A stretch of 64,000 nucleotides of DNA, from the NCBI RefSeq assembly GCF_007753265.1, contig NZ_CP036349.1:1955363-2019362 (forward strand), given 5' to 3'. Position 1 is the first letter of the stretch, and each line of letters opens with the position of its first letter. Positions 32,116-59,558 of this stretch are shown here, piece after piece. Both the position numbers and the translations under genes were made by a program. Under the pieces are notes generated by a model. That model did not search any database. It was not told the DNA's origin and saw only the letters and a program-made list of their open reading frames with translations. This DNA is from Botrimarina mediterranea. GTDB lineage: Bacteria; Planctomycetota; Planctomycetia; Pirellulales; Lacipirellulaceae.

Positions 32116-33060
32116 TCACTCGCTGTACTGAAAGCCGCCCAGCCGTTCGTACACCGTCGCCAGGGCCTGCGTCCCCTCACGCCCCGCACCCGCCGCGGCG
32201 GCGGATTGGTAGAGCGTCTCGACGAGCTTGGTCATCGGCAGCGGCAAGTCGTGCGTCCCCGCGGCGCCGGCCACCAGCCGCAGGTCCTTGAGCAACAGGT
32301 CGATCATAAAGCCGGGGGCGTGATCACCGCTGGCGATCTTCGGGCCCAAGTTCGCCAGTTGCCACGATCCTCCGGCGCCCGCCGAAACGACCTCAACAAC
32401 CTGCTGCAAGTCGAGCCCGCTCGCCTTCGCGAGCGCCAGTGCCTCGCACACGCCCGACAGCACGCCGATGACCGCCACTTGGTTGCACGCCTTGCACGCC
32501 TGACCGCTGCCGGCGGGGCCGAGGTGCGTGATCCGTTTGCCGACGTGCTCGAGCAGCGGCCGCACCGCGTCGAACGCCGCCCGATCGCCGCCGCACATGA
32601 TCGACAGCGTCCCTTCGCACGCGCCCACGTCGCCCCCCGAGACCGGCGCGTCGATCAGCGTGGCGCCATGCTCGGCCAGCCGTTCGGCGAACCCCTTGGT
32701 CGCGACCGGGCAGATCGTCGAATGATCGACAACCACAAGGCCCTTCACCAGCGAAGCGTCGGCCGCCGTGACGCCGGTCTCGCCGAACAGAACCGCCTCG
32801 ACGTCGGGCGTGTCGGGCACGTTGACGAACACCACCCGGCAACCGGCAGCGATCGCCTCGGCGGCCGAATCGACGACTTTCGCGCCGTCACCAACGAGGG
32901 CTTCGGCTTTCGCTCGGGTGCGGTTCGCGGCGTAGACGCTCACCCCCGCCTTGAGCAGGTTCCGCGCCATCCCGGCGCCCATGATGCCAACGCCGATGTA
33001 CGCGACAGGGCCAATGGACGCGTCTGGGCCGAGGTTCGCGATAGGGGAGGGGGGCGGCAT
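32116..33060 (-). CDS. NAD(P)-dependent beta-hydroxyacid dehydrogenase
   Basis: 314 residues. Rossmann motif GVGIMGAGMARNLLKAGV near residue 22, substrate-binding DAPVSGGDVGACEGTLSIM, and catalytic Lys in GQACKACNQ. This is the 3-hydroxyisobutyrate / tartronate-semialdehyde reductase family (GarR, MmsB). The exact substrate cannot be told. The stop of the MerR-like regulator gene lies 18 bases upstream in the same orientation, so the two may be co-transcribed. Confidence 0.88.
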   Translation of the reverse strand: MPPPSPIANLGPDASIGPVAYIGVGIMGAGMARNLLKAGVSVYAANRTRAKAEALVGDGAKVVDSAAEAIAAGCRVVFVNVPDTPDVEAVLFGETGVTAADASLVKGLVVVDHSTICPVATKGFAERLAEHGATLIDAPVSGGDVGACEGTLSIMCGGDRAAFDAVRPLLEHVGKRITHLGPAGSGQACKACNQVAVIGVLSGVCEALALAKASGLDLQQVVEVVSAGAGGSWQLANLGPKIASGDHAPGFMIDLLLKDLRLVAGAAGTHDLPLPMTKLVETLYQSAAAAGAGREGTQALATVYERLGGFQYSE

Positions 33061-33078: not shown

Positions 33079-33954
33079 TTAATGGTTGGCGTGGAGTGAT
33101 TGCTGAAAGTCGATCAGCTCTTGCAGCGACGAACCGACTAAGCCGCAGCGCAGCCGTGATCGGACGTCGTCATCGATCGCCGTGCCGCCGACCGCGTACT
33201 GACAGCGTCGGCCGTCGATCATCGGCGCCGCTTCGGCCATGGCGTTGAGCTCGGCGACGAACGCGTCGGCGTCGCTCTCCAGGTGCGTGACGCTCAGGCA
33301 CGCCAGCAGCGGCTTGCGTTTGTCGACAATGTCGGCGATCTCGCTAAGCGGCAGGCCGCTGCCCGCCATCTCGACCAGCCAGCCCTCGGCCAGCAGCGCC
33401 AACTCGACCAGCCGCGGCGGCGCCTCGGAAAAATCCAGCGACGGCGTCGCCACTAGCGCGAGCGGCGCGTCGTCCGCCGGCGCTGCGAGCCAGCGACGCA
33501 GCTCGTGCAGCGTCGCCATCATGACCTCGCAGCTGCGCCGCTCTTGATGCACCGCGACCGTGCCCGCAGCCCAGCCGTCGCCGACGCGCCGAAACGCCGG
33601 GCCAATCAACCGGTCGCCGAGCGCAGCGATCGATTCGCCGCGCTGGTAGAACGACAGCACCAACTCACGGCACGCCGGCTCGTTGCCCACCACCATCGCC
33701 GCGAAAAGCTCGTCGACGGCCGACTCGAGCGCTGCCCCGCGCGAGGTCGCCACCATGCCGAGCACGGCGGGTTCGGCGAGCTGATGGCCCGTTTCGCGGA
33801 TGAACTTGGCGATGCTCGGTAGCGGCACCTTGCGATGCCCGCCCGCCGTCTTCGCCGCCGGCAGTCGGCCGCTATCGACCCACCGCTTCACCGACGACTC
33901 GCTGACGCCGAGCGCTTGGGCGATCTGCTTCGGGGTGAATACCGCCGTGGACAT
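33079..33954 (-). CDS. MerR-type regulator with degenerate B12-binding fold (paralogue 1)
   Basis: 291 residues from the ATG at 33952-33954. Residues 1-60 are a MerR/excisionase-type winged HTH (FTPKQIAQALGVSESSVKRW, then GGHRKV). A four-helix region follows, then a Rossmann-like domain resembling the cobalamin-binding half of LitR/CarH. The CarH motif W-x9-E-H appears as W128-x9-E138-R139, so the His is Arg. The usual D-x-H-x-x-G ligand motif is replaced by PSLDFSEAP and has no His. Cobalamin photochemistry is therefore unlikely unless another residue substitutes. A paralogue with the same change lies at 48369-49259. Target genes unknown. Confidence 0.75.
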   Translation of the reverse strand: MSTAVFTPKQIAQALGVSESSVKRWVDSGRLPAAKTAGGHRKVPLPSIAKFIRETGHQLAEPAVLGMVATSRGAALESAVDELFAAMVVGNEPACRELVLSFYQRGESIAALGDRLIGPAFRRVGDGWAAGTVAVHQERRSCEVMMATLHELRRWLAAPADDAPLALVATPSLDFSEAPPRLVELALLAEGWLVEMAGSGLPLSEIADIVDKRKPLLACLSVTHLESDADAFVAELNAMAEAAPMIDGRRCQYAVGGTAIDDDVRSRLRCGLVGSSLQELIDFQQSLHANH

Positions 33955-48368: not shown

Positions 48369-49259
48369 CTAGTGCCCGCGCGGCGGAGTCGCCTTCGCGA
48401 TCGGATGCACGCCGCGAGCGATCTCGAGGAGCGACGTCAGGTTGGCGCCGATATGAACCCGCGGATTCAGTGAAGCCCCGACCACGGCCCGAGCTTCGCG
48501 GCCGCCGACCACCACCGGCATCGTGGGCGTGGTCGTTTCGAGAAACTCGTTGAAGCCGCCGCGGAGTTCCTCGATGTCATGGACGTGAGACACGCTCAGC
48601 CAGAAGAGCTGGGGCTGGTGCCGCACCGCGGCCGTGGCCATCGTCGCGAAGGGGAGCGAACTACCCAGAGACGTGGCGTCCCAGCCCTCTTCGGCGAGCA
48701 CCACCTCAACCATCAGCGTCGCCAGCCGGTAGTGATCACCGGTCGGAGAGCCCCCCATCGCTGCCGGGGCGTCGGGGCTGGGAGCGGGGAGGTACGACCG
48801 CAGCTCGAACAGCACCCGGTTGATCGACTCGCAGGCTCGGCGTTCCTGGTAGACCTCGGTCGCACCGCACACCCAGCGGTCGCCGATGGTGTGCAGTGTC
48901 GGGGCTAGAAGCCGCTCACAGAGCCCCAGGACGCCCTCTCCGGCCAAGTAATGGTCCAGGACGACCCGACGTGTGGCGGCGTGATCTCCGGCCTCCAACG
49001 AGGCCAGGAGGGCCTCACGGGACGACTCTAAGGTCGCGACGCGCCGCCCGGCCCCGACGGGCAGGCCGAGCGCTTCGGGGCTCACCAGCGGGTGGCTCTG
49101 CTCCCGTAGAAACCGCACGACTTCGCGGATTCGGATTCGCCGGTGGCCGCCCGGGGTCTTCTCCGTAGTGATGACGCCCTGGTCGCACCAACGCTTCAAC
49201 GACGATTCGCTGACCCCGATCGAGGCCGCAACTTGTTTCGGGCTAAGGAGTTCCTGCAT
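48369..49259 (-). CDS. MerR-type regulator with degenerate B12-binding fold (paralogue 2)
   Basis: 296 residues from the ATG at 49257-49259. HTH SPKQVAASIGVSESSLKRW then GGHRRIRI, a helical middle part, and a Rossmann-like tail ending NPRVHIGANLTSLLEIARG. As in paralogue 1 (33079-33954) the CarH W-x9-E-H motif is W129-x9-E139-R140. The region that should hold the D-x-H-x-x-G ligand reads PTGDHYRLATL, with the Gly lost. So cobalamin binding is doubtful. It is divergent from a sigma factor; its own predicted promoter overlaps a direct repeat (49388-49408), which suggests self-regulation. This arrangement resembles LitR/LitS pairs. Confidence 0.8.
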   Translation of the reverse strand: MQELLSPKQVAASIGVSESSLKRWCDQGVITTEKTPGGHRRIRIREVVRFLREQSHPLVSPEALGLPVGAGRRVATLESSREALLASLEAGDHAATRRVVLDHYLAGEGVLGLCERLLAPTLHTIGDRWVCGATEVYQERRACESINRVLFELRSYLPAPSPDAPAAMGGSPTGDHYRLATLMVEVVLAEEGWDATSLGSSLPFATMATAAVRHQPQLFWLSVSHVHDIEELRGGFNEFLETTTPTMPVVVGGREARAVVGASLNPRVHIGANLTSLLEIARGVHPIAKATPPRGH

Positions 49260-49363
49260 GTGGTAACCGCGGGTAGTCGACCGTCGAAGCAGGTCTGGAA
49301 AGACTCTAGCGCCCCGGCCAAGCACGGGTAGCTGTCCAGGTCGGCAGGAATTCACTGCACCTC

Positions 49364-49392
49364 AGTTTAGCCTAGCTGATCCAGGCAGTGAA
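49364..49392 (-). promoter_or_regulatory. Candidate promoter of the MerR/B12-fold regulator
   Basis: Minus-strand TTCACT (49387-49392), 17-base spacer, TAAACT (49364-49369), about 105 bases before the ATG. The -35 lies within the first CGATTT repeat unit. Confidence 0.45.
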
Positions 49393-49467
49393 CGATTTGG
49401 CCGATTTTGTGCTTGATCTGGGGCTGGAGTGGCGATAGGGTTTCAGGTGAACGATTTGGACGATTTA
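49388..49467. promoter_or_regulatory. Twice-repeated direct-repeat operator (CGATTT pairs)
   Basis: GTGAACGATTTGGCCGATTT (49388-49407) recurs as GTGAACGATTTGGACGATTT (49447-49466), starts 59 bases apart. Each copy holds two CGATTT units spaced by 9 bases. A weak plus-strand promoter (TTGATC 49413-49418, TAGGGT 49436-49441) lies between the copies. They are likely binding sites of the divergent MerR-like regulator. Confidence 0.6.
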
Positions 49468-49525
49468 TTAAGGCCCGCAAGACAGCGGGCGAACCGCCAA
49501 GCTCTCTTCCGCCAGGAAATCCCCG

Positions 49526-50524
49526 ATGGCAACGCTCAACCCTCCCGTCCGCCGCGCCCCGTCTGCCACCGTCACCAAGGCGAAGTCCGCCAAAGCGGCC
49601 ACCAAACCGAAAGGCCCTTCAAGCAAGCGTCCCAACCGCCCGACGGCTTTGGATCGCCGGGTCGAAGAGCTCCGGCGTGTTGAGATCGATTACATCCCCA
49701 ACGACAGCTTTTGCTTGGCCAACGACGAGCCGACTGGCCTAGCCGCCGAAGTCGAGCGTGGCGACGCTCCTGCCGAAGCCCTCGCCGCGGGTCTGCCAGC
49801 GCATCTCGGCCGCATGTCTGCGACGCGACTGCTCACCCCAGAGGAGGAACGTGACCTCTTCCGCCGGATGAACTATTGCAAGTTCCGGGCGCAGGCGTTG
49901 CGATCGAAGCTCGGCCGCACGGCGCCCTCGGCGGCTCGGGTCGCCGAGATCGAGGATTGCTTGCGGCGTGTGACGCGGCTGCGGAACCACCTGATCCAGG
50001 CGAACACCCGACTCGTGATGTCGATCGCCCGGCGGTTCGCCAACAGCTCGAACTCCTTCGACGACCTCCTGAGCCACGGCATCGTTTCGCTGATGCACGC
50101 CATCGAAAAGTTCGACTACGACCGCGGCTATCGATTCAGCACCTACGCGACGTGCGCCGTGCGGCGCGACCTCTGCCGTCACGTGATGACGCAGCGGCGA
50201 GACTCACAGCGGTTCAGCACCGGCGCGGACCTGCTGCTCAACGACGTCGGCGCCGAGCCCGGCGACGCCCAGCACCTCAGCGAACCCGAGTGGGGCGTAC
50301 TCAACTCGTCTCTCGTGCAGATGATTCAGCGCCTCGACGAGCGCGAGCGGTTCATCGTCACCCACCGCTTTGGCCTCGGCGACGGCGCCAAGCGGGCCTC
50401 CTACAACCGGCTCGGACAGCGGATGGGCATCTCGAAGGAACGCGTTCGGCAGCTCGCCAACCGGGCGATGGAGAAGCTGCGCGAATGGGCGCCCGATTAT
50501 CGACTCGAGGCTTTGGTAAGCTGA
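49526..50524 (+). CDS. Sigma-70-family RNA polymerase sigma factor
   Basis: 332 residues. After a basic Ala/Lys/Pro-rich tail and a linker, region 1.2-like RLLTPEEERDLFRRMNYCKF; region 2 NHLIQANTRLVMSIARRF, DDLLSHGIVSLMHAIEKFDYDRGYRFSTYATCAVRRDL; region 4 RERFIVTHRFGLGDG and ISKERVRQLANRAMEKLRE. It has no region 1.1 and a short region 3, so it is an alternative factor. Divergent from the MerR/B12-fold regulator, with operator-like repeats between them. Function inferred as a light or stress response. Confidence 0.9.
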   Translation: MATLNPPVRRAPSATVTKAKSAKAATKPKGPSSKRPNRPTALDRRVEELRRVEIDYIPNDSFCLANDEPTGLAAEVERGDAPAEALAAGLPAHLGRMSATRLLTPEEERDLFRRMNYCKFRAQALRSKLGRTAPSAARVAEIEDCLRRVTRLRNHLIQANTRLVMSIARRFANSSNSFDDLLSHGIVSLMHAIEKFDYDRGYRFSTYATCAVRRDLCRHVMTQRRDSQRFSTGADLLLNDVGAEPGDAQHLSEPEWGVLNSSLVQMIQRLDERERFIVTHRFGLGDGAKRASYNRLGQRMGISKERVRQLANRAMEKLREWAPDYRLEALVS

Positions 50525-50558
50525 CGTAGGTCAGTCCTTTCCACGGGGAAATAAGCCG

Positions 50559-51095
50559 ATGTCCGAGCCATCTTCGTCTGCAATCGCCTCGCTCCCCACC
50601 TCGACCGAAGGGGCAACGCTCGCCGAGCTGTCCCAAGAGCGGCCGGTGTTTGTCGTGCTGCTCCGCCACGCCGGTTGCACTTTCCACCGCGAAGCCCTGG
50701 CGGACCTCAGAGCGGTCGAGCCCGAGATCGACGCCGTCGGCGCGCGGTTGGCGATCGTCCACATGGGGGCCGGTGACAACTCGATCGAGTCCGCCGAGCG
50801 CTACGACCTCCGCAGCGCAACGCACGTCGCCGACCCCGACCAGCAGCTCTACAAAGAGCTGGGCATCTCCCGCGGCCGCCTCAGTCAGTTGCTCGGTTGG
50901 CAAGAGTTCTCAAGAGGCGCAAGTGCTTGCCTGCTCAAAGGCCACGGTGTCGGCGTCCTGAAAGGCGACGGCTTGCAGCTCGGCGGGCTGGCGCTGATCA
51001 ACAAGGGACAAGTTGTCTGGAAACGTCCGCTCGAGCGCGCGTCCGAGAGGCCCGACTATGTCGTGGAAGTTCGGGACGCTCTTAAGGCTCTTTAG
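50559..51095 (+). CDS. PRXL2/SelL-like thioredoxin-fold protein
   Basis: 178 residues. FVVLLRHAGCTFHREALADL is the active-site region of the AhpC/TSA-like PRXL2 family, which normally has C-x-x-C (or Sec) there. Here it is C40-T-F-H43, so the second Cys is His. Later blocks VAIVHMG and YKELGISRG are typical. The redox role is probable but altered. It starts 34 bases after the sigma factor stop, so it is likely in the same transcript and under the same switch. A bidirectional terminator follows. Confidence 0.8.
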   Translation: MSEPSSSAIASLPTSTEGATLAELSQERPVFVVLLRHAGCTFHREALADLRAVEPEIDAVGARLAIVHMGAGDNSIESAERYDLRSATHVADPDQQLYKELGISRGRLSQLLGWQEFSRGASACLLKGHGVGVLKGDGLQLGGLALINKGQVVWKRPLERASERPDYVVEVRDALKAL

Positions 51096-51216
51096 AAAGC
51101 GTTGGTACGCCGGTTCTACGCACTGTACATCTTCGACTGCTTCAGGGTGGGAGCGCGGCAGACTTGTGCCGCTCTGACCTGTTGATTCGCCGCTTCGGCA
51201 AGCGGACGCAAAAGAG

Positions 51217-51245
51217 AAAGCCGTCTAGAGAATCTAGACGGCTTT
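51217..51245. terminator. Bidirectional terminator
   Basis: A 13-bp stem (51217-51229 with 51233-51245) and 3-base loop. T-rich sequence follows on both strands (GCTTTCGCATTTTC on plus, GCTTTCTCTTTTGC on minus). It serves the convergent genes ending at 51095 and 51297. Confidence 0.8.
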
Positions 51246-51296
51246 CGCATTTTCAGATGGCCAAGTTCTCGGTTAACAGCAGCTGTCGCATGCCGA

Positions 51297-52040
51297 TCAA
51301 GCGTTTCGAGCCGGCCGTAGACCGAGCACTCCGCCGAGGCTGAGGAGCGACCAAGCCACTAGCGAAGTCGCCTCGGGGACGACGCCCGCGCCGGTAGCGA
51401 CAAGCACTCGGACTTGGTCAACGCCGGAGCTGTTGGCCAGCAAGATGTCAAAGTCGAGCGTCCGTTGATCGTTGCCAACGGATGCAATGAGCCGATCGAT
51501 ATTGGCGCCACTCAACTCCAATCCCCGCGATGCACTTCCGGTTGCGGGAGTGTTGGGATACGTCGTCGTCGGCGACAAGCCCAAGGTCGCATCGGTAGCT
51601 GTTAAGTCCGCGCTAAGAAAAATCAGACCGAGAATGTTTTGAGTGAATGTAATCGAGCCCGTCGCGCTTCGGACGGGATTACCATCCCCAGTCGCGCTGA
51701 CGGGATCAAAGTGGAAGAACCAGGAGTCGAAAGTCGCCGTCACGATCCCAGGCGATTGGCCACCAGGAATGTTGGTTTGCGTGCCACTCACCAAGTGATT
51801 AACGGCTTGGTCGGTGAGGATGCCGGTCTGCTCTTGGAAGCCAAAAATTGTGGTGTCCGATTCGCCAGTGCCGCTGGCTCCGTTCAGAACGTCGGTCGGG
51901 GCGCTGATGATTTGCACCGAAGCCTGCGCGACGCCAACGCAACCCAGGAGTGCAATCAGCGAGCACAGGGCGAAGCGAGCTCGGACGAGACCCTTCAAGG
52001 AGTCTTGAACCACTGAACAAAGAGTACCGAAAGCCATCAA
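51297..52040 (-). CDS. PEP-CTERM-like exported protein
   Basis: 247 residues. Signal peptide (LCSLIALLGCVGVAQAS). The mature part is beta-rich with many Gly/Thr/Ser. The C terminus VVPEATSLVAWSLLSLGGVLGLRPARNA has the PEP-CTERM layout, but the motif reads VPEA rather than PEP, so sorting could be altered. I cannot name a function. It stands alone, with a strong bidirectional terminator downstream. Confidence 0.7.
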   Translation of the reverse strand: MMAFGTLCSVVQDSLKGLVRARFALCSLIALLGCVGVAQASVQIISAPTDVLNGASGTGESDTTIFGFQEQTGILTDQAVNHLVSGTQTNIPGGQSPGIVTATFDSWFFHFDPVSATGDGNPVRSATGSITFTQNILGLIFLSADLTATDATLGLSPTTTYPNTPATGSASRGLELSGANIDRLIASVGNDQRTLDFDILLANSSGVDQVRVLVATGAGVVPEATSLVAWSLLSLGGVLGLRPARNA

Positions 52041-52227
52041 GAACTCCGGGAAGTACGACTTATCTGATGCACGTCGAAGAATCGCTTTATTCGCGCAGGT
52101 TTGCCCAGTTTACCGACCTTGCTGGCCATGGCAACTGATTTTGCCGGGGAAGCTTGCGATTAACCTCATGTCACATGCGGCTCGCCGCATCTGTCGGGCG
52201 TCGTGCCAAGTCGTTGTTCGCACTTGG

Positions 52228-52707
52228 TTACTCGGTGACAGCCGACTTCTTCCCGCCGGTCAGGCGTGATGCATCCCGGTTGTCGGCGATCCAGTCTTCG
52301 CGCGTGTAGGTGATGACTGACGAGTCGGTCTCGCGCACTTCGAGTTGCGCCAATCGGAAGCCCATCTCGGTGATCTCACTGAACAGGGTGAACGCCAGGT
52401 TCTCGACTGTCGTCGGGGCGTCGAACACCTTGAAGCGGAACCGCTCGCCCGTGCGGCGCTCATGGTCTTGCAGCGTTTCGTAGAGCGGGTCGGTGCGGTT
52501 GATGAGCATGCCGTGGTCGTAATGCTCCTTGAGGTACGGCTCGATCTTCGCGTCGAAGTCGCCGAACAGCGTCGACAGCGCCCCGGTGCGCTCGACCTCA
52601 AAGTGACACACCAACCCGTACCGGTGCCCGTGCAAGTTGCGGCACTTGTCCTTGAGCTGCTCGTTGCGATGCGCGGCGTAGAACTTGTATTGCTTTTGGA
52701 TAATCAC
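52228..52707 (-). CDS. queD: 6-carboxy-5,6,7,8-tetrahydropterin synthase / PTPS family (QueD-like)
   Basis: 159 residues from a GTG at 52705-52707. Zinc ligands H13 (YAAH), H26 and H28 (LHGH), catalytic Cys C22 (DKCRNLHGH), then DFDAKIEPYLKEHYDHGMLIN and APTTVENLA. The PTPS fold makes pterin intermediates from the FolE product dihydroneopterin triphosphate. It lies 154 bases after folE in the same orientation. It may feed queuosine synthesis (QueG, 10.4 kb) or another pterin cofactor. Confidence 0.9.
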   Translation of the reverse strand: MIIQKQYKFYAAHRNEQLKDKCRNLHGHRYGLVCHFEVERTGALSTLFGDFDAKIEPYLKEHYDHGMLINRTDPLYETLQDHERRTGERFRFKVFDAPTTVENLAFTLFSEITEMGFRLAQLEVRETDSSVITYTREDWIADNRDASRLTGGKKSAVTE

Positions 52708-52861
52708 GGGGGGCTTCGTACGGTGAGCGGCTTCGGATGTTCGCTGTTAGTTGTGATGCAAAAGGGGAAAGGGGAAACGTATTGAGTATTGATGCCGGCT
52801 GAGAGGCCATGGGAAGACTAATTCTTTTCCCCTTTCGCCTTTCCACTTTCCCCTTTCGGCG

Positions 52862-53590
52862 TCAGCCTTTCGTGATCAGCGTCATCACCTCGGCGCGGCT
52901 CGCTTGGTTGGTCTTGAAGACGCCGCGGAGGGCGCTGGTGACGGTGCTTGCGCCGTGCTTCTTGATCCCGCGGATCGACATGCAGGAGTGCTCGGCCTGG
53001 ACGACGACGGCGACGCCCTTCGAGTTGAGCTTGGATTCGATCAGGTCGGCGATCGTCTGCGTCATCCGCTCTTGCACCTGCGGGCGGCGCGAGACCTCTT
53101 CGACGACGCGAGCCAGCTTGCTCAGGCCCGTGACGCGGCCGTTGGGCAAGTAGGCCACGTGCGCGACGCCGCTGAACGGCAGCAGGTGATGCTCGCACAT
53201 GCTGGTGAAGCGGATGTCGCGCACCAGGACGATCTCGTCATACGACTCGGGGAACGTGACGTCGAGGTGCCGGCCCGGGTCGAGCGTCAGGCCCTCGAAC
53301 ATCTCGGCGTACATCTTCGCAACACGCCGCGGCGTTTCGAGCAGGCCCTCGCGGTCGGGGTCTTCGCCGACCGCCTGCAAAATTGCTCGCACGGCGCCCT
53401 TGATCGCTTCAAGATCCACCGGAGGCTTGTCTTCGGATGCGGACAGACCTTCAGCCGCGGATAGTTCGTTGCTCACGCTGGTGGGGTGTTTGGACGCATC
53501 GAGATCGGCGGGCCCCGCGGGCTTGTCGTGTCGATTGCCCGCCGCGGTGTGACCGTTCTTGATCGCGCCGATTTCCAATGCCACCGACAT
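52862..53590 (-). CDS. folE: GTP cyclohydrolase I FolE
   Basis: 242 residues from the ATG at 53588-53590 (GGAG upstream; a TTG start at 53644 is possible). N-terminal tail of about 55 residues before the domain. Motifs: [41 protein letters not shown] with zinc Cys and catalytic His, [17 protein letters not shown], and the zinc Cys of [15 protein letters not shown]. It turns GTP into dihydroneopterin triphosphate for folate, queuosine and pterin cofactors. Folate-type cofactors also serve photolyase antennae, and two photolyase genes lie 1.3 kb and more upstream, but this link is inference. Confidence 0.95.
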
Positions 53591-53808
53591 GCCGGGGACT
53601 CCGTGTGTTAGAGGGACCGTTGGCCGCCTGGCCGTCCCTTTCAATTAGGCCCGGTCCGCCGGAGGGGCAGAGTCGGAGGTGTGTGGCGCCGCGGCGGGAG
53701 GCGACCGAAGTTCGCCCAAAGTGAACCGCCGGCGTCCAGGTAACTGTAGAGAAACGGCCCCCGGTGACAACTGGCGCCCTGGGGACAAAGGCGGGAGCCC
53801 GCGGCCCC

Positions 53809-53853
53809 AAAAAACCACGAGCCCGTCCGGCGGTGGTCCGTCGGACGGGCTCG
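53809..53853 (-). terminator. Terminator downstream of the peroxiredoxin gene
   Basis: A 12-bp stem CGAGCCCGTCCG (53818-53829 with 53842-53853), followed on the minus strand by six T (53809-53814). It lies between ahpC-like and folE and separates their transcription. It is part of the 333-base gap that otherwise holds only a family E half repeat. Confidence 0.8.
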
Positions 53854-53887
53854 GGCAATCTGTAGGGGCCGTGGGGGCCTCTCACGC

Positions 53888-53913
53888 TAACCGGGGGCTA
53901 AGGCCCCGCGGCT
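53888..53913. repeat. Half repeat of family E type
   Basis: AACCGGGGGCTAAGGCCCCG then CGGCTAA, a diverged single arm of the repeat seen at 34628-34654 and 60044-60116. Confidence 0.5.
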
Positions 53914-53923
53914 AACGGACAGG

Positions 53924-54562
53924 TCACGCCGTCGTCGAGTACTCGCTCTCGAAGAAGGTTTTCGACGCGTCGACGGTTGGCTTGATCGTGGCGGCGCCTT
54001 CCTTCCAGTTGGCGGGGCAAACCTCGCCGTTCTTCTCGAAGTACTGCAACGCCTTCACCATCCGCAGGGCCTCGTCCACGCTGCGGCCCAGCGGCAGGTC
54101 GTTCACCACCTGGTGGCGGACGACGCCCTTCTGGTCGATCAGGAACAAGCCACGCAGGGCGATGCCGCCCGGCAGCAGCACGCCATACGACTCGGCGATG
54201 CCCTTGGTGAGGTCGGCGACGAGCGGGTAGGCCGTCTTGCCGATGCCGCCCTGCGAACGCGGGACCTGGGTCCACGCGTGGTGCGTGAAGTGGCTGTCGA
54301 CCGACACACCGAGGATCTGCACGCCGAGCTTCTCGAACTCGCAGGCGGCGTCCGAGAAGGCGATGATTTCCGTCGGGCAGACGAACGTAAAGTCGAGCGG
54401 CCAGAAGAACAGCAGCACGTACTTGTCGTCGTAATCCGACAGCTTCACTTCCTTGAACGACCCGTCCGGCATCACGGCCTGAGCGGCGAAGTCGGGCGCC
54501 TGCTTCTGAACGAGCGTGGCGGGGGGAAGCTGGTAGTCCTCAAAACAATCGTGATCGCTCAT
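53924..54562 (-). CDS. Typical 2-Cys peroxiredoxin (AhpC/Prx1 family)
   Basis: 212 residues. Peroxidatic Cys62 in [12 protein letters not shown] and resolving Cys182 in [11 protein letters not shown]; other blocks [14 protein letters not shown] and [30 protein letters not shown]. Reduces H2O2 and organic peroxides. It lies upstream of folE in the same direction, but a terminator separates them. It is part of the stress-related cluster at 48-60 kb. Confidence 0.95.
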
Positions 54563-54856
54563 TACGTGCTCCAGAGATTCCGTTGTGCGGGCAGGAGCCG
54601 CCCCATCCGGGCGGCCATGGTTGGGGTGGGCCAGTTGGGGTGGGCCAATAGCACACAGTTATAGACGGCTTGGGGGCGTGAGCAAGACGCTAAAGCCATG
54701 CGGAAATAGCATAGGTTCTATGCGGGGCATGCAATGTGGGAATGACCAAGGTCCAAGCCCCAATGACCAATAGCGTGCTACTGCACGGACCTTCCCTTAG
54801 CCTCTCAGCCCCTCGAATCCTCAGCCCCTAGCCCCTCGAGGGTCATAAGGGCTTGG

Positions 54857-56428
54857 TTATTGATCATTCGCTGCGGCGAGCTGTTCGCGCAGCTTCGCTG
54901 CTTGTTGCCGGATGGCCGATAGCTCGTCGGCCGGCTTCCGCTCGAGATTCTTCAACTGCATCGCCATGCGGTTGTTGCCGGCGAGGCGGTCGCGGTGGCG
55001 GGCGAGGAAGTCCCAGTAGAGCGTTGTGAACGGGCACGCGTCGTCGCCGGTGGCTTTTGCTGGATCGTACCGGCAACCCGCGCAGTAATTGCTCATCCGC
55101 TGGAGGTACTTGCCGGTCGCGCAGTACGGCTTGCTCGCCATCAGGCCGCCATCGGCGTGCTGGGACATACCCAGCGTGTTCGGGAGCTCGACCCACTCGA
55201 CCGCGTCGATATAGACGGCGAGGTACCACTCGTGCACCTGCTGTGGATCGACCCCCAGCATCATCGCGAACAATCCCGTCACCATCAGCCGCTGGATGTG
55301 GTGGGCATAGCCGTATTGCAGGGTCTGACCGATCGCGTCGCGGAGACACGCGTAGTCCGTCTCGCCGGTCCAATAGAAGTTGGGTAGCGGTTCGTTCGCG
55401 CGGAGCGCGTTGCGTTCCAGGTACTTTGGCATTTGCGTCCAGTAGATCCCGCGCACGTACTCACGCCAACCGAGGATCTGCCGAACAAATCCCTCCACCG
55501 CTTCGAGCGGCGCGGCGCCCGACTCGTACGCGGCGACGGCGGCGTCCACCACTTCGCGCGGATCGAGCAGCTTGACATTCATCGCCGCCGACAGCCGCGA
55601 ATGGTACAGCCACGGCTCGGCCGTCCACATCGCGTCTTGATACTCCCCGAAGCTCGGCAAGCGATGGCGAATGAAGTCCTTCAGCGCAAGCCGCGCGTCC
55701 GCGACCGAGACGGGCCAGTCGAAGTCGTCGAGCGTGCCCGGGTGTTCTGCGAAACGCTCGTTGACGAGGTCGATGACGGCTTGCGTCGTTGTGTCCGGCT
55801 TGAAACGCCGCGCGGCGGGGACCTTGCCCGGTCCCTTCTTGCCGAAGGCGCCGCGGTTCTCCTTGTCGTAGTTCCACTCTCCGCCAACCGGCGCGCCGTC
55901 TTCCATCAGGATGTCGAGACGCTTCCGCAGTTCACGGTAGAAGAACTCGAGCCGAAGTTGCTTGCGACCGTTGGCGTGACGAGCGAAGTCGTCGGGCGTC
56001 GTGTAGAAGTGCGTGTCGTCGAGTTCAACGAGCTCCAGCCCCGCCTCGTCGGCGATCAGCCGCAACTCCTCGCGCACCCGCCACTCACCGGGATGAACGA
56101 CGACAAGCCGTAGCGGCTTCAGCCGATCGATCGCATCGCGCAACGCGGCTGCAAGAGTCTCTTCGCCGCCGACGCGAGTGCGACCTTCCGACTTCACGGG
56201 CAACTCGCGGTAATCAACACGAATGCCTTCCGCCTTCAGCTCGTCACGAAAGTGCCGCATCGCCGTGAGAAAGAACACGGTGCGGACCTTATGCGACCAG
56301 ACGTGCGTCGATTCACCAGCGACCTCGGCCATCCAAACGACGTCACGCTTGGGATCGAAACCCTCGAAGATTGGCGACTGCCGGTCGAGTTGATCGCCGA
56401 GGATGAGGGCGAGCGTACTTAATACCAT
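54857..56428 (-). CDS. FeS-containing cryptochrome/photolyase (FeS-BCP, (6-4) type)
   Basis: 523 residues from the ATG at 56426-56428. TLALILGDQLDRQSPIF opens the FeS-BCP family (PhrB of Agrobacterium, CryB). Cysteines for the 4Fe-4S cluster are visible in DYACLRD, KPYCATGKY and NYCAGCRYDP; FAD-binding region W-E-x-W-type residues lie in the preceding helices (GWREYVRGIYWTQ). It would repair (6-4) photoproducts with blue light or act as a light sensor. These enzymes bind a lumazine antenna. Class II photolyase is encoded just upstream in the same orientation, with a palindromic repeat between. Confidence 0.9.
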   Translation of the reverse strand: MVLSTLALILGDQLDRQSPIFEGFDPKRDVVWMAEVAGESTHVWSHKVRTVFFLTAMRHFRDELKAEGIRVDYRELPVKSEGRTRVGGEETLAAALRDAIDRLKPLRLVVVHPGEWRVREELRLIADEAGLELVELDDTHFYTTPDDFARHANGRKQLRLEFFYRELRKRLDILMEDGAPVGGEWNYDKENRGAFGKKGPGKVPAARRFKPDTTTQAVIDLVNERFAEHPGTLDDFDWPVSVADARLALKDFIRHRLPSFGEYQDAMWTAEPWLYHSRLSAAMNVKLLDPREVVDAAVAAYESGAAPLEAVEGFVRQILGWREYVRGIYWTQMPKYLERNALRANEPLPNFYWTGETDYACLRDAIGQTLQYGYAHHIQRLMVTGLFAMMLGVDPQQVHEWYLAVYIDAVEWVELPNTLGMSQHADGGLMASKPYCATGKYLQRMSNYCAGCRYDPAKATGDDACPFTTLYWDFLARHRDRLAGNNRMAMQLKNLERKPADELSAIRQQAAKLREQLAAANDQ

Positions 56429-56477
56429 GGAGATTTGCCGCGGAGTTCGCGGAGGTCGCGGACAGAGGCCGTGTGGA

Positions 56478-56563
56478 AATGACGAATGACGAAGCACGAA
56501 TGACGAACCTGACGGGGCGGCTAGAGCCCTCCGGCAGGTTCGTCATTCGTCATTCGTCATTCG
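56478..56563. repeat. Inverted repeat between the two photolyase genes
   Basis: Left arm 56478-56512 and right arm 56535-56563 built from ATGACGA units and their complement (CGTCATT). The stem is nearly perfect and lies in the 158-base gap. It may end the upstream photolyase transcript or protect RNA. Confidence 0.6.
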
Positions 56564-56586
56564 AGCTTCGAGTTTCGTCATTTGGC

Positions 56587-58104
56587 TCAATCAAACAACG
56601 ACCGCTCGGCGTCCGCCGCATATCGCCTCACATAGTCCTTCACCCGCACCTTCCGCGCCGTGTTCTCGCTCGTCATGTAGCGGATTTTGCCGTAGATGGG
56701 GCGCTCGGGACCCCAGGCGCGGTCGTAACGACCGAGCACCCAGAAGATGCCCGAGTAGCTGTTGGGGTTGCGGCCGTCGAGGGCGTACTTGTTGTTCAGC
56801 TCGATCATCACGTCGAGCGCCGCTCGGGGCGATTCGCTCCATTCAAGAATCTTCTTGCCCCACAGCATCCGCAGGTAGTTGTGGATGCGGCCCTCGCGCA
56901 CCAGTTGCCGCTGCGAGGCGTTCCAGAGCTCGTCGTACGTGCGGGCGCCTTCCAACTCTTCGAGCGTGTAGAGCGGGTCGCGCTGGTCGCCGGCGTGTTC
57001 GGCAAGCGTTGCTTGGGCCCAGTCGGGCAGCGACTCGTAACGGTCGTAGTCGCGTCGCTTGCTCGTCATGTTGAAACCGACTTCGCGCCACGTGACGAGC
57101 TCGTCGAGGAATGCCTCGGCGGTCGGGCTCATGTTCCACCAGCCCTCCCGCGCGCCAGTAGGCTTCTTAGCGGCTTTGCTGGGGTTCCAATTCTCATGCT
57201 CGGCGACGGCGGCGAAGACCTCGTGCGCCGACAGATGCCCCCAGTGCAAGTAGCCCGACAGCTCACTGGCGGCGTCTTCTTCGGGCTGGTTGCGGCGCTC
57301 GCCGTAGACCTCGAATCGCTTTCCCATGAAGCGATCGAGCGCCTTACCCGCTGCGATGTAACCGCCGGGCTCTTTCTCCACCGGCTTTACCGAGTGATCG
57401 ATCGGCAACGACGCAATCAACTTCGCGGGCGCTTCGAGGTCGGCGTCTTGGACAGGACGCCACTTCTTCTGAATCGCATCGACGACTCCCTGCGCCGAGG
57501 GCAGACGCGTCCCTTGCAGCGGCGCGGGCTTGGGAAGCTCGCTCAAATGCGGCAGCAAGTCCTTGTGCAACTGCCGACGGAAATCGAACGCCCTCGAAAA
57601 GACATTGTCGGTGGCGCGGAGCGGGTAGAGGCCGTTGGAGTCGACGAGTTCATAACGGCAACCAATCGCCCGCCGCGCCGCTCGGGCCTGCGCCGGCAGG
57701 AAGAAACTCGGAAAGTCATCGCCAACGACAACACACGCCCGCTCCGCAAACGCCGCAAGCAAGCCGCTGGCGGCGCCGGGCTCTGGTTCGAGGTAAGGGT
57801 AGTAGCAAACGCCATCGATGTCGGCGAACGCCTCGCGGTTGTCGCGCATCCCCTCGGCGACGACCGTGTGAAATCGGTCGCAAGCCCACCGGTAGTCCAC
57901 CCTTAACGCTTCGAAGACCACCAGCGGCTTTTCAAGCCCCCGCGCCCAATCGACCGCACGCTCCAGCGCAAGGTTCCACCGCGGCCGGCGAAACGCGGTC
58001 ATCCAGTAAAGGATGTAGTCGCCGTCAGCCTTCACATCGACCAACCGCTCGCCGTGGCCAGAGCTGAGGCGGATCTTCGGGACCGCGGATTCGATCGTAG
58101 GCAT
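56587..58104 (-). CDS. Class II CPD photolyase
   Basis: 505 residues. The class II signature block is complete: GRIHNYLRMLWGKKILEW, then NNKYALDGRNPNSYSGIFWVLGRYDRAWGPERPI, and YGKIRYMTSENTARKV. The N-terminal Rossmann region begins YILYWMTAFRRPRWNLAL. It repairs cyclobutane pyrimidine dimers in DNA with FADH- and light. Upstream is only a palindromic repeat (58118-58184), so its own promoter must lie close to or within that repeat. Confidence 0.95.
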   Translation of the reverse strand: MPTIESAVPKIRLSSGHGERLVDVKADGDYILYWMTAFRRPRWNLALERAVDWARGLEKPLVVFEALRVDYRWACDRFHTVVAEGMRDNREAFADIDGVCYYPYLEPEPGAASGLLAAFAERACVVVGDDFPSFFLPAQARAARRAIGCRYELVDSNGLYPLRATDNVFSRAFDFRRQLHKDLLPHLSELPKPAPLQGTRLPSAQGVVDAIQKKWRPVQDADLEAPAKLIASLPIDHSVKPVEKEPGGYIAAGKALDRFMGKRFEVYGERRNQPEEDAASELSGYLHWGHLSAHEVFAAVAEHENWNPSKAAKKPTGAREGWWNMSPTAEAFLDELVTWREVGFNMTSKRRDYDRYESLPDWAQATLAEHAGDQRDPLYTLEELEGARTYDELWNASQRQLVREGRIHNYLRMLWGKKILEWSESPRAALDVMIELNNKYALDGRNPNSYSGIFWVLGRYDRAWGPERPIYGKIRYMTSENTARKVRVKDYVRRYAADAERSLFD

Positions 58105-58117
58105 AGTTCAGTAGATT

Positions 58118-58184
58118 TGAACCACGAAGGAACGAAGGCCTTGGTTCGAGCCTTTACTTTGTTCCTTCGTTCCTTCGTGGTTCA
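58118..58184. repeat. Palindrome, family F
   Basis: Perfect 21-base arms: TGAACCACGAAGGAACGAAGG (58118-58138) pairs with 58164-58184. It lies 14 bases before the class II photolyase start, where its promoter should be. Confidence 0.85.
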
Positions 58185-58186
58185 TA

Positions 58187-58229
58187 AAGAAAAAGAGCCG
58201 GCCCTCGGCGACGATCGCCAAGGGCCGGC
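58187..58229 (-). terminator. Terminator after the fasciclin gene
   Basis: Stem 58197-58211 with 58215-58229 (core GCCGGCCCT, one mismatch), followed on the minus strand by a T-rich run (58187-58194). Confidence 0.75.
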
Positions 58230-58255
58230 AGCTTAACAAATTAACTCCGCAACGC

Positions 58256-58813
58256 TTACGGCATCATCACGGTGTCGATCACATGGATCACGCCGTTGGT
58301 GCACTCGATGTCGGTAGCGATGATCTTCGAGCCAGCGATGGTGACGACGTCGCCGTTTACTTCGATCTTGGCCTTCTTACCGTTGACGGTCTCGGCCTCT
58401 TTGCCGGCGAGCTTCACCGCGTCGGCGGCCATCACTTTGCCGGGGATGACGTGGTAGGTGAGGATCGCGGTCAACTTCTCTTTGTTCTCGGGCTTCAGCA
58501 GCGACTCGAGCGTCGCCTTATCGACCTTGGCGAACGCCTTGTCGGTCGGGGCGAAGACGGTGAACGGGCCTTCGCCCTTGAGCGTCTCGACGAGGCCGGC
58601 GGCCTTCACCGCGGCGACGAGCGTCGTGAAGTCCTCGGCGCCAACGGCGGTGTCGACGATGTCCTTCTTCGCGGCGACCGCGGCGACGGGGTGGAGCGTC
58701 TCTTGGGCGTTGGCGGCCGTAGCGGCGGCGGCCTGCATCGGGCACGTCTCGCCGGCCTGAGCCAGCGGGGCGGTGGTCAAAACAGCGGCGGCAATCAGCA
58801 ACTGGGTTTTCAT
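58256..58813 (-). CDS. Secreted fasciclin-domain protein
   Basis: 185 residues with a signal peptide ([21 protein letters not shown]). A single FAS1 domain spans about 48-184: [42 protein letters not shown] and [26 protein letters not shown], then [17 protein letters not shown]. Single-domain fasciclins are cell-surface adhesion or matrix proteins. A terminator separates it from the photolyases. Confidence 0.92.
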
Positions 58814-58943
58814 CTTTTGTTCCTCGGAAAGACTATGGCGGTCGTGCCGGCGCGGCCGTCAATGAAACTGACAACGCCGGTCTGAACAGAAGTCGCGTCT
58901 ACCTGTGTCTCTAGGAGGTCCAAGAAATCCGACAACCGCCGAA

Positions 58944-58961
58944 CGGTGAAAAGCTTCACCG
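58944..58961. promoter_or_regulatory. Palindrome in the leader of the ferritin-like gene
   Basis: CGGTGAA-AAGC-TTCACCG, perfect 7-base arms, 145 bases before the ferritin-like start. It is a possible operator or leader hairpin. I found no matching known box. Confidence 0.4.
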
Positions 58962-59105
58962 AACCGCCGAGTCGCCGCCAAACGACGGGGGTAGTTGCCG
59001 CTGCCGCTCGGAAAGCGGAGAATCCTCTCGGAGCGCGTGGCGGCCGGAGGCCCCCGCGTCCCTCAAACCGCCTCAGCCACCCTTCACCATAGGGAAGCCA
59101 AGATC

Positions 59106-59558
59106 ATGGCCGCCTCGAAAGAAGAAATCGTTCAGCTGCTGACGACCGCCTACAGCATGGAGCTCGAAACGGTCATTAACTATTTGGCGAACAGCACCAA
59201 CCTCGACGGCGTCCGCGCCGAAGAGATCAAGAAGTCGCTCTCAGCCGACATCACCGAAGAACTTGGCCACGCCCAGATGCTCGCCAAACGGATCAAGCAG
59301 CTCGGCGGCGTCGCGCCCGGCTCGAAGAGCGTCAAGCTCGGCAACCAGATCCAGCCGCCCGACGACACGACCGACGTGGTTGGCGTCATCAAATCGGTGA
59401 TCGCCGCTGAAGAGGCCGCCATTGCCCACTACCGCAAGATCGCCCAGGCGACCGACGGCGACGATTACATCACGCAGGACCTCTCGATCCAGCTAATGGC
59501 GGACGAAGAAGAGCATCTCGTACTGTTTCGCGGTTTCCTCAAGGAGTACGACCGCTAA
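59106..59558 (+). CDS. Ferritin-like four-helix protein
   Basis: 150 residues from the ATG at 59106 with GGGAAG upstream. Four-helix bundle with the di-iron ligand pattern E-x6-Y and E-x2-H: YSMELETVINYL, ITEELGHAQML, AAEEAAIAHYRKI, and ADEEEHLVLFRGFLKEYD. The arrangement is that of bacterioferritin/rubrerythrin-like storage or detoxification proteins. Iron storage would limit Fenton chemistry, fitting neighbouring peroxiredoxin and photolyase genes. Confidence 0.85.
   Translation: MAASKEEIVQLLTTAYSMELETVINYLANSTNLDGVRAEEIKKSLSADITEELGHAQMLAKRIKQLGGVAPGSKSVKLGNQIQPPDDTTDVVGVIKSVIAAEEAAIAHYRKIAQATDGDDYITQDLSIQLMADEEEHLVLFRGFLKEYDR

Follow-up and report, generated by a model that had tools for sequence, protein, structure and literature searches.

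Gene content and gene order of the island

The DNA analysed here, referred to as the window, is a stretch of 64,000 nucleotides from the single-contig, 5.87-Mb genome of Botrimarina mediterranea (Planctomycetota, Planctomycetia, Pirellulales, Lacipirellulaceae), and its subject is an island of genes at positions 48369–59558 in which a regulator gene, regA, is divergent from a sigma factor gene. The product of regA (48369–49259, minus strand) was found from family profiles, a structure model and an alignment to comprise a MerR/BldC-type helix-turn-helix (HTH), a four-helix bundle and a B12-type Rossmann domain; its start is most likely the ATG at 49259, not 49355. The divergent gene (49526–50524, plus strand) encodes a sigma-70-family factor of 332 amino acids with regions 2 and 4 (PF04542/PF04545), which is RpoD/SigB-like in that its top scores were with RpoD/SigB-type models, although among the models shown the generic sigma-70 model alone passes its cut-off. 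Two candidate operators lie between these genes, site 1 (ACGATTTGGCCGATTT, 49392–49407, plus strand; conserved in relatives) and site 2 (ACGATTTGGACGATTT, 49451–49466, plus strand), which are 59 bp apart and have two mismatches and one mismatch, respectively, to a family form, GAACGWTTTGAACGWWTT. A predicted core promoter of the sigma gene, TTGATC-N17-TAGGGT (49413–49441, plus strand), is situated between the two sites.

The gene 3′ of the sigma gene (50559–51095, plus strand) encodes a PRXL2/SelL-like redox protein (PF13911 above cut-off; NF040769 at 106.9 bits, below the cut-off of 120). On the minus strand there follow a gene for a protein of the QueD/6-pyruvoyl-tetrahydropterin-synthase family (queD, 52228–52707; PF01242 above cut-off, a CxxxHGH motif read from the sequence, and 48.3 against a cut-off of 89.25 for the QueD equivalog TIGR03367), folE for GTP cyclohydrolase I (52862–53644, likely start 53590; PF01227), which is the sole copy in the genome above the family cut-off, and prx for a 2-Cys peroxiredoxin (53924–54562; PF00578). 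Next on this strand are dprp, encoding a DPRP/FeS-type photolyase (54857–56497, likely start 56428; PF04244) whose C-terminal half contains cysteines that presumably ligate the cluster, phr2, encoding a class II cyclobutane pyrimidine dimer photolyase-like protein (56587–58104; 333.7 bits to TIGR00591, cut-off 550, and no Pfam match), and fas, encoding a fasciclin-domain protein with what reads as a signal-peptide-like start (58256–58813; PF02469). The island ends with a gene for a ferritin/Dps-like protein (dps, 58995–59558, plus strand), which has weak Dps matches in NCBIfam (63 bits, cut-off 158). The genes that a sequence-only reading had named were each found to be an intact open reading frame (ORF) within the island, and its clustering of two photolyase classes with pterin and redox genes is borne out by these ORFs and their family matches.

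Gene order was compared in 34 stretches fetched around relatives of regA or of regB, a second regulator gene of the same fold family (33079–33954, minus strand; 38% identical, in a separate clade, about 14 kb upstream of the island). The eight-gene order regA-sigma-queD-folE-prx-dprp-phr2-fas is kept in all three same-genus genomes (L044, L046 and L048), as the sequence-only reading had anticipated for related genomes. Therefore, the clustering goes beyond chance, and the island is a conserved gene set. The PRXL2-like gene 3′ of sigma and dps are each in place in L044 and L046 and were not detected in L048. The genome G007 belongs to the same family and retains sigma, queD, folE and prx; the 18 kb fetched from it gave no match to a photolyase.

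In distant relatives the block is split, and its pieces recur beside regA. Pfam was run on the genes of one locus per cluster, and the recurrent neighbours in distant Planctomycetota were a divergent sigma or fasciclin gene, an amine-oxidase/DUF1365/CMAS/DUF1295 operon, which is a furan-fatty-acid-type operon, DUF2867, SDR, photolyases and folE-queD. A second sample of 80 loci was picked for closeness to the query, and 59 new loci with flanks of up to 4 kb remained after 21 duplicates were dropped. These contained amine oxidase (24), DUF1365 (22), sigma (21), CMAS (20), SRPBCC-like (16), fasciclin (12), phr2 (9), folE (8) and queD (7) genes; the names SRPBCC, SOUL, renalase, TspO and DUF393 are sequence readings without a family-library check. 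The regulator family is common, being present in 183 of 297 genomes of a class sample and in 34 of 199 of a phylum sample (24 of those 34 outside the class), and loci were read for part of the regulator-bearing genomes.

A candidate operator and the predicted sigma factor promoter

The regA/sigma intergenic region contains two copies of CGATTTNNNCGATTT, at 49393 and 49452, and the site has the form of a 9-bp direct repeat (ACGATTTGA-type). Exact matches to ACGATTTNNNCGATTT occur only twice in the whole genome, at sites 1 and 2, flanking the sigma promoter. It had been proposed that a CGATTT repeat might be found upstream of the genes of the island; two tandem pairs are present in the regulator/sigma intergenic region, whereas no other island gene is preceded by one. 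That RegA directly controls all of the island was therefore rejected, and the earlier reading of an island governed by it is not supported in that form; control of the remaining genes would have to run via the sigma factor.

Conservation of the site was evaluated in 350 bp upstream of 74 regA genes, namely the window's own, 26 from the first fetch and 47 best-scoring loci of the class and phylum samples (the fragment L077 was dropped). In the divergent orientation CGWWTTNNNCGWWTT was matched exactly in 35 of the 74 and with up to one mismatch in 48, compared to 1 and 2, respectively, in the opposite orientation, and to means of 0.05 (exact) and 2.6 (up to one mismatch, maximum 6) in 20 shuffles. 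Thus, sites upstream of regA relatives nearly always read toward the divergent gene. None of the eight regB-type upstream regions matched CGWWTTNNNCGWWTT with up to one mismatch, and no clear alternative 9-bp repeat was seen in 27 upstreams lacking the operator. In the second sample (400-bp upstreams), exact matches were present in 23 of 58 and matches with up to one mismatch in 31 of 58.

The co-occurrence of site and regulator was counted in 74 hand-chosen genomes, of which 41 have the regulator and 33 lack it; several fragmentary genomes and the window's own were left out. The family form GAACGWTTTGAACGWWTT was found with up to one mismatch in 37 of the 41 and in 5 of the 33 (Fisher p 2.8e-11), whereas the same form read backwards gave a single match in all 74 genomes. 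The regulator-bearing genomes without the site are G003, G036, G119 and G150, and the first of these, of the same genus, has two diverged sites. As for the five regulator-free genomes, four of the sites are inside open frames of more than 400 codons and that of G106 is in a 98-codon frame and possibly intergenic. Away from regA, the regulator-bearing genomes have 16 site loci, of which seven front a sigma gene of the window-sigma family (G038, G015, G023, G034, G025, G037 and G108) and two a fasciclin gene (G256 and G040, one of two sites being well placed in the latter). The operator-fronted sigma gene is grouped with phr2 and fasciclin genes in G015 and G023, and in G015 also with dps. From these comparisons, the putative operator is traceable across related bacteria, and the 9-bp direct-repeat site is new here.

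A second regA-like gene of G025 (locus L168) is broken into two pieces; next to it are a sigma gene, a DPRP photolyase gene and two fasciclin genes, and two operator sites are kept.

Paired sites (up to two mismatches each, 50–70 bp allowed) were found in 26 of the 74 upstreams, with actual spacings of 55–68 and most commonly 58. The spacer contained TTGnnn-N17-TAnnnn in 18 of the 26, compared to a mean of 0.9 and a maximum of 6 for shuffled spacers, and in 14 of these 18 the TTG begins five bases past site 1; two other spacers have TTGACA or TTGACG with TATAAA. Site 2 is expected to cover the transcription start, and two sites around a housekeeping-type promoter are the layout expected of a bracketing repressor. 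A position directly upstream of the −35 element, such as that of site 1, would also suit an activator that recruits RNA polymerase to the sigma promoter, and many MerR proteins are activators. MerR-activated promoters, however, have a stretched spacer, and the spacer here is an ordinary 17 bp. The placement of the second site over the expected start region also argues against activation, as does the similar two-site layout of PmlR2 of P. mendocina at a light-inducible sigma-70-type promoter, where one footprinted site overlaps the −35 and another is downstream of the start (PMC9758184). We consider activation by RegA very improbable.

The sigma gene itself follows the regulator. A short homologue of the window sigma, defined as an open frame of less than 470 codons (a limit set after the list was viewed, with counting by eye), is present in 36 of the 41 genomes with the regulator and in 6 of the 33 without (p 1e-9), and the open frames of long RpoD-type homologues are mostly 550–850 codons. 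Regulator-bearing genomes without the short sigma are G017, G028, G036, G047 and G051. The regA gene faces a fasciclin gene in G028, G047 and G051 and the amine-oxidase operon in G017, as if in most genomes lacking the short sigma the operator controlled effectors directly.

The sensor domain of RegA

An AlphaFold2 model of RegA was obtained with a mean pLDDT of 95 and a pTM of 0.91, and its best match in the PDB was CtMerR (8jbs; TM 0.84 over the target), followed by TtCarH. The model thus assigns RegA to the CarH/LitR fold. In the profile searches PF12728 and PF02607 (B12-binding_2) were above cut-off, whereas the CarH model NF052513 gave 51 bits against a cut-off of 400. The class I LitR/CarH layout of MerR-type HTH, four-helix bundle and Rossmann B12 domain is present in RegA, though PF02310 remained below cut-off (28.4 bits, cut-off 32.1).

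The possibility that RegA is a canonical adenosylcobalamin (AdoCbl) photoreceptor, that is, a class I LitR/CarH protein that is B12-bound in the dark and lost as a repressor on green or blue light, would account for this fold and these structural matches, for the B12-binding_2 domain and for the invariance in 74 of 74 sequences of Gly126, Trp129, Glu139, Gly199, Pro203 and Gly252-Gly253 of the B12-type pocket. However, class I proteins have a His as the lower cobalt ligand, within the motif D/ExHxxG or GxxH. By sequence alignment, Tyr177 of RegA corresponds to this His in CtMerR, and the position is Tyr in 71 of 74 relatives, with Ser, His and Thr once each, and in 80 of 80 loci of the second sample (picked for closeness and including the 21 duplicates). 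Furthermore, RegA has W129-x9-E139-R140, with ER in place of the EH in the Wx9EH of CarH. At the residue that follows Glu139, 51 of the 55 inner loci (L101 and those of the window's class) have Arg, and 16 of the 19 outer ones have His; Cys131, two residues past the Trp, is conserved in 51 of the 55 inner loci. The published AdoCbl light signature consists of GxxW, EH, GxxH and GxxxP (PMC11796333); RegA has two of the four motifs and fails the signature because the cobalt-ligand His is replaced by Tyr and EH by ER. A protein whose B12 domain carries Arg in place of the ligand was reported to bind neither AdoCbl nor methylcobalamin (PMC11796333). Therefore, RegA as a canonical CarH was rejected, a photoreceptor of this type being in our estimation highly unlikely, and a LitR/CarH-type light switch in the B12 sense is not supported for the island.

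A search of the literature for Tyr-ligated cobalamin domains gave nothing relevant beyond PMC11796333 among the matches listed. We raise, as a tentative and rather doubtful possibility, that RegA represents a Planctomycetota-wide class of the LitR/CarH fold that seems to belong to none of the five classes published so far and whose B12 pocket has acquired another use: the conserved Tyr177 below and, in the inner group, the conserved Cys131 above could bind a different tetrapyrrole, for instance heme or a bilin, or an unusually ligated cobalamin, giving a different photo-oxidative sensor that would gate a sigma cascade.

In the phylum-level relative L109 (G433), position 177 is still His, and GxxW, EH and GxxxP are present as well; this protein may be a genuine B12 photoreceptor on the margin of the regulator family.

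RegB forms one clade with seven other proteins (support 100/100, from a bootstrap that was not quite settled), in which position 177 is occupied by Ala or Ser. In G015 and G023 the one regulator matched belongs to this clade, and in both genomes the sigma gene is fronted by the operator; therefore, RegB-type proteins may use the same operator as RegA.

A model for RegA control and the evidence against it

The explanation that we favor, and that we consider fairly probable, is that a B12-fold repressor lacking the His ligand gates a sigma factor that heads a photo-oxidative-stress programme. It starts from the genes and their synteny, the conservation and position of the site, the predicted fold and the replaced residues, and from these we infer the binding of RegA to the site, repression, the signal and the targets of the sigma factor. 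RegA would bind as head-to-tail units on the two copies of the 9-bp direct repeat flanking the sigma core promoter, and the bound protein would keep the divergent sigma gene, and probably also regA itself, silent. A photo-oxidative signal would release RegA, and the sigma factor then made would transcribe photoprotective genes, namely those for photolyases, peroxiredoxins and fasciclin and possibly the pterin genes. Where a genome lacks this sigma gene, the operator would act directly before effectors such as fasciclin or the amine-oxidase operon.

Several points weigh against this model. With up to two mismatches, no operator was found in the window before the photolyase, folE, prx, fasciclin or dps genes. 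By eye, folE and prx each have a conserved, ordinary-looking promoter, and a shared sigma-dependent motif upstream of folE, prx and fasciclin was not apparent beyond ordinary TTG...N16...TAnnnT-like elements. At least folE must be on without light, because it is the only clear copy in the genome. With up to one mismatch, ACGATTTNNNCGATTT has 11 genomic matches, compared to 2 for a backwards control, or nine beyond the two exact ones. These nine were rejected as extra regulon members: all overlap predicted ORFs, several of them doubtful, and they are probably codon-driven chance. One of the nine, in L012, differs in the first base alone. Of the regA upstreams, 26 of 74 have no match within one mismatch, some class-level relatives among them; the opposite-orientation control in the second sample was higher (4 of 58 exact, 13 of 58 with up to one mismatch), so that the contrast there is weaker; and, of the 16 distal site loci, seven (G013 with three, G065 with two, G056 and G095 with one apiece) are either ambiguous or precede no relevant gene. 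Finally, the counts of gene adjacency carry no background rate, and the relatives share ancestry, so that the shuffle and Fisher values overstate independence.

Some of these points would also be expected if the island genes were neighbours and not one light programme, with RegA and the sigma factor answering a general redox or stationary-phase stress and with queD, folE and prx as housekeeping genes kept near by slow rearrangement. The presence of the operator only at the regA/sigma promoter, the separate promoters of folE and prx and the single clear copy of folE all fit this alternative, and the gaps of about 150–335 bp between the genes of the block argue against a single operon. However, folE is near regA in distant, otherwise rearranged genomes, that is, in 8 of the 59 new loci (mostly with queD, and some of these loci near-copies), on the divergent side in L215, L225, L227, L228, L233, L240 and L247 and downstream in L207, and also in L111. 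Photolyase, fasciclin, CMAS and DUF2867 genes likewise recur around regA across the phylum. This alternative is possible but, in our judgement, on the unlikely side. Pterin genes as light-specific members were nevertheless rejected, because the only clear copy of folE must also serve ordinary, housekeeping pterin needs.

In several distant planctomycetes (loci L225, L227, L228, L240 and L247), folE-queD is placed on the divergent side of regA, in some cases with what reads as a csrA-like gene between them; the 9-bp operator was not found at folE-queD/regA in these five loci.

Comparison with known regulators

We call the island photo-oxidative because its gene cohort overlaps the RpoE regulon of R. 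sphaeroides and the LitR regulon of Pseudomonas. The class II LitR regulon of Pseudomonas includes phrB, ufaM, folE and cryB (PMC9758184), and the RpoE regulon table lists phrA, cfaS, two putative cyclopropane-fatty-acid genes, an SDR gene, a fasciclin gene and folE2 (PMC7074977). The link of folE to light regulons, which the sequence-only reading had mentioned, is thereby supported. As a whole, that reading is supported in part: for a photo-oxidative-stress cohort with conserved synteny, at whose head are a regulator of the LitR/CarH fold and, divergent from it, a sigma factor, but not for control of the entire island or for a B12 light switch.

The class II LitR proteins of Pseudomonas (PplR1-3 and PmlR2, with a short LOV partner) resemble RegA in that they are of the LitR family, are thought not to bind B12 and occur as several paralogues per genome, and their regulon shares photolyase and folE with the island, with a furan-fatty-acid enzyme also in the Pseudomonas regulon (PMC9758184). 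Two sites bracket a sigma-70 promoter in both cases, although here the layout is read from sequence and 26 of the 74 upstreams are paired. In contrast, the Pseudomonas proteins are reported with the four-helix bundle only (PMC9758184), whereas the Rossmann domain of RegA is intact in the model, its Pfam match being below cut-off. The operators also differ, TGTACA-N12-TGTACA (PMC9758184) compared to the 9-bp repeat, and so do the targets, the target of the RegA site being the sigma gene. A search of the window, and of the window only, for TGTACA-N12-TGTACA with up to three mismatches gave 5 matches (4.2 expected), none in the island. One back-translated motif of the short LOV partner, NCRFLQ, was absent in five of five genomes, in a weak test without a positive control.

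RegA shares its domain layout, fold and most B12-pocket residues with CarH/class I LitR and CtMerR (PDB 5c8d and 8jbs) but differs in the changes of the His ligand to Tyr and of EH to ER, and its site is a 9-bp repeat in contrast to the 11-bp repeats of the TtCarH and BmCarH operators (PMC9304148). CarA of Myxococcus xanthus, like RegA as read here, is a CarH paralogue that works without B12, and via a further factor it can still govern the response to light (PMC9304148). The classic B12 motif and EH are present in CarA and the Trp of Wx9EH is absent (PMC9304148), whereas RegA keeps the Trp and has lost the His residues.

In the RpoE-ChrR singlet-oxygen regulon of Rhodobacter, as here, a sigma factor heads photolyase, cyclopropane-type fatty-acid, SDR, fasciclin and GTP cyclohydrolase genes (PMC7074977). 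However, by its scores the window sigma appears RpoD/SigB-like and not of the extracytoplasmic function type, and a transcriptional repressor, not an anti-sigma factor, seems to be the gate; no gene resembling that of the zinc anti-sigma factor ChrR is among the identified genes of the island, and no genome-wide search for one was made. The HTH of RegA resembles that of BldC (NF033787, 40.7 bits, cut-off 77), with matches to PDB 6ama and 6amk, which we take to be BldC. BldC binds direct repeats head-to-tail and is not known to have a sensor domain.

If the model is correct, the Planctomycetota gain a concrete photo-oxidative regulon with a regulator, operator, promoter and target, and a CarH-fold sensor has been retained through evolution beyond an exchange between His and Tyr as its metal ligand. 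It would also suggest that bacteria have put much the same protective set of photolyase, fatty-acid, fasciclin and pterin genes under the control of at least three different master regulators. No description of a planctomycete LitR/CarH protein was found in the literature by title or listing, with most subscription papers and preprints outside the scope of the search.

Other features of the window

An ORF inside the island that the sequence-only reading had not listed (51297–52040, minus strand) matched no Pfam or NCBIfam family at E 0.01, and tblastn did not find it in any of the 34 stretches around relatives, same-genus islands included. It reads as having a signal-peptide-like start and a PEP-CTERM-like tail, and the corresponding part of the block in the same-genus islands holds another conserved gene (cluster c23), which reads as DUF429-like.

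The regB gene is followed by what reads as a 3-hydroxyisobutyrate-dehydrogenase-like gene (32116–33060), and regB relatives in G005, G015, G018 and G023 adjoin an aldehyde dehydrogenase gene (PF00171 on one member).

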